Shown one piece after another: positions 21,238 to 29,860 of a DNA stretch of 39,123 bases. Where the stretch lies: positions 1,489 to 40,611 of the forward strand of contig SUTR01000019.1 in assembly GCA_015062825.1 (NCBI GenBank), read 5' to 3'. Made by a program: the position numbers and the translations under genes. The notes under the pieces were generated by a model. The model worked only from the letters and a program-made list of their open reading frames with translations, was not told the origin of the DNA and searched no databases. The stretch's first letter is position 1, and the number at the start of each line of letters is the position of its first letter. The DNA comes from Methanosphaera stadtmanae (GTDB taxonomy: Archaea > Methanobacteriota > Methanobacteria > Methanobacteriales > Methanobacteriaceae).

Positions 21238-21257
21238 GAGACTTAATAATTAGTCTC
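21238..21257. terminator. Hairpin between convergent pyrB and cdc6
   Basis: GAGACT at 21238-21243 pairs with AGTCTC at 21252-21257 around an 8-base loop. The right arm overlaps the cdc6 stop codon. An A8 run precedes it on the plus strand, which reads as a U-run for cdc6 transcripts. It could end transcription from the cdc6 side. Confidence 0.5.
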
Positions 21258-22401
21258 TGTAAGATAAAGCATTGTCTATTAAATCAGAATCGCATTGAAG
21301 TGTAATTACATTAGTTCTTCCTCTTCCTCTTCCTCTTGAAATGGTATTTGCTGATATTAATCCTAACATTTCCAGTTCATTTATAAAGTCAAAGATACGT
21401 CTATAAGATACTTTGTCATTTTTTGCAAAGTCTTGATATACTTCATATAAACGTCCTGATGTAATTTCTTCGTTGCGTTTAGTCAAGTAATTTATAGCTT
21501 CCAATACTTTTTGCTGTTGAATAGGTAAAGTCATTACAACATCTATGATTTTATTATGTTCAATTCTATCTTTAGCTTCTTTAACAAAGCTTTCTTCAAT
21601 AACATCCACTTCTTTTTCATCAGCTATTTCACCAGAAGTTTTAAGTAAGTCCAATGCATAACGTGCATCTCCCTCTTCTTTAGCTGCAAGAGCTGAACAT
21701 AATGCAATTACACCATCATTAACAGCACCTTCGTTGAAGGATAATTTTGATCGTTCCTTTAAAATGTCTATTAACTGTTGTGCATTATATGGAGGAAATA
21801 CTATTTCACGATCTCTTAAACTGCTTTTTACTTTTGGCTTGATAAATTGTTTAAAATCTATAAAGTTACTAATTGATGTTATTGCTACATTGTCAGTTCG
21901 GGTTAATGTATATAATATGTTGTCACCATCATTTTTGAGAATGACATCTATTTCATCTAATATAACAATTAGTATTAAGTTTTCACCTAATATGTTCTTT
22001 TTAAACAATGCGCGAAAAGTATTGACAACTTCAGCTTTGGTCCATCCACGGTATGGTACTGGTTTTCCTAATTGTTGACATAAACGTGCAAGAATCTGAT
22101 ATTCCGTATTGTAATCAGTACATCGAATATATTCTATTTTAATATTAAGATTTTCTTGTGCTGCCATTTCTTCAAGCTGATTTTTAACATAGGATACTAC
22201 TGCTGTTTTACCAGTTCCAGTTTTACCATATATTGTAATGTCAGGTGGTGTTGTTTTACGTAATGCCTCAACCCAATAGTTAGCTATTAATTTAAATTTT
22301 TCTTCTCTGTGTGGTAAATTCTCTGGTATAAATCTGTGGTCTAAATATTCTTTTGTTTTGAACACTGATTTTTTGTTTGTTAGTTGTTTAAATATATTCA
22401 T
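21250..22401 (-). CDS. cdc6: Origin recognition protein Orc1/Cdc6
   Basis: An archaeal initiator that binds origin recognition boxes and loads the MCM helicase. The AAA+ part has Walker [13 protein letters not shown] and Walker [12 protein letters not shown], and a winged-helix DNA-binding domain occupies roughly the last 100 residues. I chose the ATG at 22401 (383 residues, MNIFKQL); ATG 22410 and TTG 22440 are in-frame alternatives. A GATGAT 5 bases before it may bind the ribosome. The N-terminal [21 protein letters not shown] region is typical of the family. The gene reads away from the origin, and two or three origin boxes lie just upstream of it, so self-regulation is likely. Confidence 0.96.
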
Positions 22402-22433
22402 ATGTATCATCTTAATAATTAAAATAAAGTTAT

Positions 22434-22447
22434 ATTTCAAGTAAAAA
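22434..22447 (-). repeat. Origin box L1 (degenerate, reversed)
   Basis: On the minus strand this reads TTTTACTTGAAAT, which lacks the central CA of the consensus TTTTACACTTGAAAT. The flank AACTT is only loosely like the extended box. It lies 33 bases before the chosen cdc6 start and is 105 bases (two times about 52.5) from box L3. Confidence 0.55.
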
Positions 22448-22464
22448 ATTAATTGTAATAATTA

Positions 22465-22479
22465 AATTTCAAGTGAAAA
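22465..22479 (-). repeat. Origin box L2 (partial, reversed)
   Basis: The minus strand reads TTTTTCACTTGAAAT, one base from the core. The downstream extension (ATACCTCTCAC type) is absent, so this is a mini-box. It sits in the cdc6 upstream region and could act in its regulation. Confidence 0.6.
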
Positions 22480-22525: not shown

Positions 22526-22552
22526 GAGAGGGACGTATATTTCAAGTGTAAA
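22526..22552 (-). repeat. Origin box L3 (full, reversed)
   Basis: The minus strand reads TTTACACTTGAAATATACGT followed by CCCTCTC. Core and extension both match the forward box at 23164 closely. It is the best-preserved reversed box and marks the left side of the unwinding region. Confidence 0.85.
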
Positions 22553-22644
22553 CTCAAAAAGGTATCCCTAAAAAATTTTTAAAACTATGAAAATAAAACT
22601 TGATAAAAAAGCTTTAAATGATGAAAAAAGATTGTGCTAATTTG

Positions 22645-22779
22645 TATTAAATAAAATAAAAATAAAATAATAATAATATAATATAATAATAATATAATAA
22701 TAAATAATTAATAAATAAATAATAATAATATAATATAATAATAAAATAATAATAAATAATAAATAATAATAATAAATAA
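22645..22779. other. 135-base uninterrupted A/T tract (duplex-unwinding element)
   Basis: From 22645 to 22779 there is no G or C at all; the sequence consists mainly of AAT and AAAT units. It lies between the reversed box L3 and forward box R1. Its position and composition fit the site where the helix first opens. Slippage in such units would make its length variable between strains. Confidence 0.8.
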
Positions 22780-22901
22780 CAATAAATAAAGTTTTTTCTT
22801 CAATTTTAAGTATTTTTTTTCTCATAAAATTTTATTATAAAAAGTAATACTTTTTTAAAAATGAGTATTTTTTTATTACTTTTAAAATAATATTTTTGAA
22901 A

Positions 22902-23190
22902 TTTTACACTTGCAACATACCTTTCTATTTTTTATTTCATTTTAGAAAAATAATTTTTACACATGAAATATATGTCTATTATTTAATTTTCAATCAAGAG
23001 AAAATAATACACTTGCAATTAACCTCTCACTTATTATTTTTTTCTGATATCATTTATTTTTACACTTGCAATGTACGTCTTACTGTTTATTTTTTTGAAA
23101 GAAAAAATTATTTTACACTTGCAATGTATGTCTCACTGTTTATTTTGAAAATTTGAAATAAAATTTTACACTTGAAATATACCTCTCACT
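22902..23190 (+). repeat. Six forward origin recognition boxes in a 53-base register
   Basis: Boxes start at 22902, 22955, 23005, 23058, 23111 and 23164, giving intervals of 53, 50, 53, 53 and 53 bases. The shared core is TTTTACACTTG(A/C)AAT, followed by a pyrimidine-rich extension of the form ACCTCTCACT or GTCTCACTG. Box R2 has ACATG and R3 begins TAATACAC; the others keep the core. R4 and R5 are alike beyond the box, to GTTTATTTT. A 53-base step is about five helical turns, so the boxes face the same side of DNA. The six-base ACACTTG core is where Orc1/Cdc6 is expected to bind. Confidence 0.88.
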
Positions 23191-23241
23191 ATATCATATT
23201 AAATTAATATGAAAAATTAGACTATCTTTTAAATATTTTAA

Positions 23242-24216
23242 ATGCTAAAAATATATTTAATGTTAAATGAAACTTTAATCTATGTAATTTCAATTATAAC
23301 TTTTTCGATAATTATTGATATGATAATTGGAGAAGTTCCTGATAAAATACATCCTGTAATATTTATGGGAACAGTAATTACTAAACTAAAAAATATTTTG
23401 CCAAAAACTAAATTTTCAGGTCTATTGATTTCTCTAGTAACAATATTCCTATTTTTTGTAGTTACATTGATTATTTTGTTTATCAGTGCTTTGATTAATT
23501 CCTGGCTTTTTATTATTGTAGCTGCTATATTGTTGTCTTCAACATTTTCAATTAATTATCTTATACAAACGGTCATTGCTATTAAAAAAGATCTTGATAC
23601 AGATATTGATATTGCACGTAAGAATATGTCATATCTTGTCAGCAGAAACACGTCAGAATTAACTGAATCAAGAATTACTTCTGCAGCAATAGAAACTTTA
23701 ACAGAAAATATTACTGATAGTATAGTATCTCCTTTATTTTACACTGCAATTGTGGGACTGTTGCCTATGGGCATTTTATTTATGACGCCATGTGCCTTTA
23801 TATATCGTGTTTCAAATACTATGGATGCAATGTTAGGCTATAAAACAAAGGAACTTAAAGAAATAGGTTATGTTCCAGCTACCTTAGATGATATATTAAA
23901 TTATATTCCTGCAAGATTAACTGGATTGTATGTTGTACTAGCTGCATTTTTACTTAAATATGACTATAAACAATCATGGAATGTGATGAGAAAATTTGCA
24001 AATAAAACACCTAGTCCTAATAGTGGATATTCTATGGCAGCCGCTGCAGGTGCACTGAATATAACCCTTACTAAAGAAGGTGTTTATAAATTAGGTTATG
24101 GGACTAATGATTTAACCAGTGAGCAAATATTAAAAGCAGTTTCACTGACTAAAGTAACATCATTATTGTTTATATTGACTATAATTTTAATTTATTTCAT
24201 TTTAATATTATTGTAA
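23242..24216 (+). CDS. cbiB: Adenosylcobinamide-phosphate synthase CbiB (CobD)
   Basis: A 324-residue multi-spanning membrane protein that attaches the aminopropanol linker in cobamide synthesis. Typical segments are the N-terminal DMIIGEVPDKIHPVIFMG, the ESRITSAAIETLTENITDSIVSPLFY stretch, the RVSNTMDAMLGYK segment and the C-terminal TPSPNSGYSMAAAAGAL. ATG 23242 and 23260 are both possible; neither has a Shine-Dalgarno site. It begins directly beside the origin and is followed 17 bases later by cbiG, so they form an operon. Confidence 0.95.
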   Translation: MLKIYLMLNETLIYVISIITFSIIIDMIIGEVPDKIHPVIFMGTVITKLKNILPKTKFSGLLISLVTIFLFFVVTLIILFISALINSWLFIIVAAILLSSTFSINYLIQTVIAIKKDLDTDIDIARKNMSYLVSRNTSELTESRITSAAIETLTENITDSIVSPLFYTAIVGLLPMGILFMTPCAFIYRVSNTMDAMLGYKTKELKEIGYVPATLDDILNYIPARLTGLYVVLAAFLLKYDYKQSWNVMRKFANKTPSPNSGYSMAAAAGALNITLTKEGVYKLGYGTNDLTSEQILKAVSLTKVTSLLFILTIILIYFILILL

Positions 24217-29833: not shown

Positions 29834-29860
29834 TTTTTACACTTGAAATAAATGTCTTTT
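29834..29860 (+). repeat. Isolated origin recognition box
   Basis: TTTTACACTTGAAATAAATG followed by TCTTTT matches the forward origin boxes in both core and extension; box R2 is the nearest relative. It lies in the 81-base gap between the convergent cbiH and ferredoxin-like genes, about 6.6 kb from the array. No second box is found near it. Confidence 0.75.

Follow-up and report, generated by a model that had tools for sequence, protein, structure and literature searches.

The window analysed here, a stretch of 39,123 nucleotides from Methanosphaera stadtmanae, carries in this order an orc1/cdc6 gene, three inverted boxes, an A+T stretch with AAT-type repeats, an arm of six boxes, and cbiB (Table 1). 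The orc1/cdc6 gene belongs to the chromosomal group, and its product is 59–90% identical to orthologues encoded beside the same boxes throughout the order. The best PDB matches of the protein are the archaeal Orc1/Cdc6 chains 2qby_A and 2v1u_A, which we take to be DNA-bound; the true start of the gene is probably the ATG near 22410 or 22401. Two further Orc1/Cdc6 relatives are found in the genome of the window (L002 on contig 47 and L003 on contig 120 of G000). They are 26–27% identical to the chromosomal protein and possibly derive from mobile elements.

Table 1. Origin features in the window and synteny groups of satellite boxes
Feature	Position	Strand	Evidence or context
orc1/cdc6, replication initiator gene	21250..22440	-	TIGR02928, E 4e-116
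Inverted ORB L1 (weak)	22426..22447	-	PWM 17.2; promoter/5' region of orc1/cdc6
Inverted ORB L2 (weak)	22458..22479	-	PWM 15.0
Inverted ORB L3 (strong)	22531..22552	-	PWM 29.7
Stretch of A+T-only repeats lying between the ORB arms; candidate duplex unwinding element	22640..22790	.	~92-100% A+T per 60-bp window
ORB R1	22903..22924	+	box pattern, PWM
ORB R2	22956..22977	+	53 bp from R1
ORB R3	23006..23027	+	50 bp from R2; slot of 50-51 bp in every Methanosphaera compared
ORB R4	23059..23080	+	53 bp from R3
ORB R5	23112..23133	+	53 bp from R4; near-identical to R4 even outside the box
ORB R6	23165..23186	+	53 bp from R5; TATA-like stretch directly after, ahead of cbiB
cbiB, array-side neighbour gene	23242..24216	+	TIGR00380 / NF002281 above cut-off
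Isolated satellite ORB	29836..29857	+	PWM 28.1; gap between convergent genes, at 6.7 kb from the array
Satellite group 1			upstream of the gene for a 456-aa protein that follows an AddA/UvrD-like helicase gene
Satellite group 2			flanked by a MetX-like gene and a proteasome-assembly-chaperone gene
Satellite group 3	29836..29857 (window)		gap where a tetrapyrrole-methylase gene and a ferredoxin-domain gene converge
Satellite group 4			beside a glycosyltransferase gene
Satellite group 5			one other site

The six boxes of the right arm (TTTACACTTGMAATNTAYSTCT) all lie on the plus strand. With starts set 2–3 nt ahead of the 22-bp box proper, they begin at 22901, 22954, 23004, 23057, 23110 and 23163, and the start-to-start gaps of 53, 50, 53, 53 and 53 bp are exactly those given by the first-pass annotation of this DNA. 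For six boxes placed randomly in 450 bp, a gap range of at most 3 bp has a probability of ~0.8–3 x 1e-5 under any assumed minimum spacing. Each of the six boxes is at most one mismatch away from the degenerate ORB core TTACACTTGAAAT with its 3' extension, and their weight matrix (PWM) scores are 23.5–31.8. The box also agrees with the Methanobacteriaceae ORB core TT[TA]CACTTGAAAT... used by Ori-Finder 2 (PMC4164010 Table 1); the 3' part of the ORB as printed in that table is one position of register off relative to the box in the window. Beyond the six boxes noticed originally, the window holds the three inverted boxes of the left arm, next to orc1/cdc6, and the isolated box at 29836–29857. 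The distances in the left arm are 32 bp (L1 to L2) and 73 bp (L2 to L3); the former is kept in several Methanosphaera, and L3 is found in nearly all of them.

A textbook archaeal origin comprises an A+T-rich unwinding element, flanking inverted polar ORBs and an adjoining initiator gene (PMC4010727, PMC5333045, PMC12141716). The matching ORB core, the adjacent orc1/cdc6, the inverted arms around the A+T-rich element and the recurrence of this layout upstream of orc1/cdc6 order-wide all speak for the locus being an origin. In the closest complete genome (G115; Orc1 identity 90%) the sign of the GC skew flips at the locus, the change being weak: the mean is -0.019 on the left and +0.021 on the right, as calculated from 20 sampled 20-kb blocks of this genome only. 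The six boxes are thus very probably the right arm of a Methanosphaera-type chromosomal replication origin in which a distance of about 50 bp is kept by selection; the binding of Orc1 to the boxes, the unwinding and the reason why the distance matters we infer. Each 22-bp box would serve as an asymmetric site that binds a single Orc1/Cdc6 molecule, the product of the neighbouring gene. The two arms of outward-pointing boxes would flank the A+T-only stretch, where the duplex would be opened and the MCM helicase loaded. Neighbouring Orc1-bound units would need to lie about 50 bp apart for the array to work, which would account for the near-constant centre-to-centre distance.

To compare spacing among relatives, we took the DNA upstream of orc1/cdc6 from well over 100 genomes of Methanobacteriales, oriented it and scanned it with a weight matrix of 22 positions. 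At a score of at least 9 these regions contain about 950 boxes, as against 15 in shuffled copies. In 13 distinct Methanosphaera origins the successive slots of the right arm measure 52–54, 50–51, 51–55 and 51–56 bp; two members of the genus, G108 and G120, are exceptions with rearranged boxes. The rearranged origin of G120 (L240; contig 4, 1–9000) has numerous boxes that point in either direction, and its satellite site at 7 kb carries three ORBs in tandem at a distance of 21 bp. In Methanobrevibacter-like genera a right-arm pair is 47–48 bp apart (exactly 47 bp in 49 of 55 cases in genus g10).

A Methanothermobacter genome of 1,751,377 bp (G149), which we take to be that of M. thermautotrophicus deltaH, has a right arm of six boxes spaced 50, 51, 53, 53 and 50 bp. 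The origin of this species, with its MthORB array, was reportedly described by Capaldi & Berger 2004 and Majernik & Chong 2008 (both as cited in PMC4010727 and PMC5333045). The G149 locus shares with the window the box core and its 3' extension, the adjacent orc1/cdc6, the two inverted arms and the number of boxes in the right arm. It differs in the spacing of the left arm (89, 49, 71, 51 and 49 bp vs 32 and 73 bp in the window), in the gap between the arms (73 bp vs 372 bp) and in the box itself, which has GAAAT where the boxes of the window often have GCAAT. The origin of M. thermautotrophicus has been established experimentally (PMC4010727). Sulfolobus oriC1 (ORB2-DUE-ORB3; PMC12141716) also has inverted polar ORBs flanking an A+T-rich element, each ORB being bound by one Orc1-1 monomer, and a ucm motif that is essential (PMC12141716); it has three boxes and no long regular array, whereas the window has nine boxes.

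Regular spacing thus recurs in Methanosphaera, Methanothermobacter and Methanobrevibacter-like genera, which makes it a trait of the order and no peculiarity of the window. The comparison with related genomes, as suggested in the first-pass annotation, bears out the spacing as conserved in Methanosphaera and finds a regular pair in the Methanobrevibacter-like genera as well. The accompanying remark that such regularity is unusual for archaeal origins does not hold among these relatives. Taken by itself, the array belongs to an already known class, the Orc1/Cdc6 origins of Methanobacteriales, and is an ordinary member of it.

The spacers behave differently from their lengths. Over the 13 Methanosphaera origins the standard deviations of the slot lengths are 0.70, 0.46, 1.32 and 1.55 bp, while spacer identity is at the level of shuffled sequences (0.575 vs 0.563, 0.517 vs 0.519, 0.532 vs 0.534, and 0.538 vs 0.519); the boxes themselves are 0.79–0.84 identical. 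That the length is kept while the sequence is not argues for selection on distance, and in Methanosphaera-type origins the inter-box distance indeed looks selected, judging from these figures. The 47-bp spacing of the Methanobrevibacter-like genomes is weaker evidence, since the spacer inside the pair is partly conserved too (identity 0.70 vs 0.50 shuffled). The low variance of spacing may also partly reflect a low indel rate, given that the gap between the arms is itself nearly constant (372–386 bp in 11 of the 13 Methanosphaera; 231 and 328 bp in the other two). The tolerance, 49–56 bp in Methanosphaera and Methanothermobacter and 47–48 bp elsewhere, is looser than that of a rigid lattice. 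The array spacers were also searched for phased A/T tracts and for any further conserved motif; only a mild drift from T-rich to A-rich came out, which could not be interpreted.

The comparison thereby adds a quantitative constraint: initiator sites keep their distance while the sequence of the spacers changes, and the distance has two settings that depend on the lineage, 47–48 bp and about 50–56 bp. Cooperative binding has been reported for the Cdc6 of M. thermautotrophicus, and whether archaeal Orc1 forms higher-order complexes is, according to the same review, unclear and dependent on the species (PMC5333045). The distance constraint turns the higher-order assembly of archaeal Orc1 into a directly testable question.

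One explanation of the constant distance is helical phasing proper, with boxes five turns apart, initiators on one face of the DNA and bends adding up. The one-face picture fits the single sequence of the window, where 53 bp corresponds to 5.05 turns and the boxes lie within an arc of about 86 degrees, giving a phase coherence of R = 0.87 at 10.5 bp per turn; the slot of 50 bp departs from register by about 86 degrees. Several relatives also reach R of at least 0.8, but the value falls to 0.44–0.62 in G115, G116, G122, G117, G123 and G114, and in G149 one arm gives 0.61 and the other 0.08. The range is 0.44–0.94 within Methanosphaera and 0.08–0.94 in Methanothermobacter. The 47–48 bp of the Methanobrevibacter-like clade amount to about 4.5 turns, half a turn out, and some helical period makes any regular array look phased. 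An integer number of turns with a phase conserved between relatives was thus not observed, and we consider helical phasing unlikely. Across all lineages, a rule that sets initiators about 50 bp apart gives a better fit than one that keeps them on a single helical face. The first-pass annotation had proposed a designed nucleoprotein array in which initiators would line up on one side of the helix: the organised and selected spacing of the origin boxes stands, because the spacers cannot be aligned and their lengths are kept, whereas the one-sided helical purpose, despite the coherence in the window, is not conserved in relatives.

The regularity could alternatively be a passive relic, without function, of tandem duplication of a unit of about 53 bp. 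Consistent with this, R4 and R5 are alike over nearly all of about 35 bp, within Methanosphaera six boxes occur only in the clade of G000, G115 and G112 (the remaining species compared have at most five), and the satellite cluster L226 in G098 is plainly built from duplicated 54-bp units. Spacing that is a mere relic should, however, have drifted by now, since the spacers have diverged genus-wide to the shuffled level and their lengths are unchanged. When species are compared, boxes that occupy one slot are about as similar as boxes from different slots, or more similar, which indicates that the array is old. A relic is therefore a rather improbable source of the regularity, less probable than phasing. 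Unit duplication may have added a box; an origin of the sixth box by clean duplication of one 53-bp unit was rejected, as the distance from R1 to cbiB is about 80–90 bp longer in the six-box clade, not 53 bp.

It is very improbable that the boxes are mainly operators for cbiB (R6) and orc1/cdc6 (L1–L3) and not replication elements. L1 and L2 do lie within the orc1 promoter region, and in the window, as in most Methanosphaera, the last right-arm box abuts a TATA-like sequence ahead of cbiB (23165–23240), so that initiator binding could also affect cbiB transcription; the whole, however, is the standard layout of archaeal origins, in which an A+T-rich element next to orc1/cdc6 is surrounded by spaced boxes. 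A CRISPR-like or iteron-type plasmid array, which short repeats with unique spacers of even length might bring to mind, is refuted to the point of negligible probability by the degeneracy of the repeats and their arrangement in inverted arms, by spacer lengths conserved between species, by neighbours among which, as far as identified, no cas or plasmid rep gene is evident, and by a chromosomal locus conserved order-wide.

We also found boxes of the same type outside the origin. When the window's own genome was scanned with a loose pattern, there were 102 matches vs 23 in the reversed control; with the extended box and at most two mismatches, controls gave 0–1 per genome, and most genomes still had boxes outside the origin. 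Ten genomes that are complete or nearly so have 36 sites with at most one mismatch, of which 26 fall in the fifth of the chromosome nearest to the origin (binomial P 2e-11), and in Methanosphaera alone 15 of 18 do so (P 1.4e-8), P values that are too small because the counts are not phylogenetically independent; by synteny group, our own tally for Methanosphaera is about six near groups of nine. Five synteny groups were recognised (Table 1), and in groups 1–3 the 22-bp box is intact between species while the flanking DNA is unrelated. The gap that holds the satellite box of the window, for instance, also holds boxes in G110, G115, G118 and G126, with unrelated flanks.

These observations tentatively suggest, at somewhat below even probability, an initiator layout on two scales: a core array with the selected rule of about 50 bp, and single near-perfect ORBs at conserved intergenic sites some 5–240 kb away, which may titrate Orc1 or mark the origin region rather than regulate their neighbours, by analogy with datA and parS of bacterial origins. 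Ordinary promoter operators were considered and rejected, plain promoter control being unlikely because the gene contexts are mixed (convergent 3' gaps, upstream, downstream) and cannot be reconciled with one promoter role. Extra ORBs outside the core origin are also known from Haloarcula hispanica oriC2, where a downstream cluster has been proposed to act negatively (PMC4010727); that is one cluster, whereas the satellites described here are mostly single boxes in syntenic intergenic positions, at distances that run from kilobases to hundreds of kilobases. We found no description of such satellite boxes in the literature searched, the coverage of which was partial, and the pattern looks newer than the array itself. 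The satellite boxes near the origin are concrete candidates for sites at which archaea titrate their initiator or mark their origin.

Isolated near-perfect ORBs occur in syntenic gaps between genes in several Methanosphaera, about 5–240 kb from the origin (29836–29857 of the window, L206–L225, L238, L239 and L243). Satellite clusters of five, three and two boxes (L226 on contig 4 of G098, 2577–2803; L227; L228) lie downstream of an orthologous aminotransferase gene; four boxes of L226 are exactly 54 bp apart, an evident unit duplication. In Methanothermobacter one satellite ORB site, some 100 kb away from the origin, is conserved. In G149 (L234) it consists of two boxes in the gap that separates a YGR210-like GTPase gene from a cation-ATPase gene, and similar sites are present in G139, G141, G143, G145, G147 and G148.
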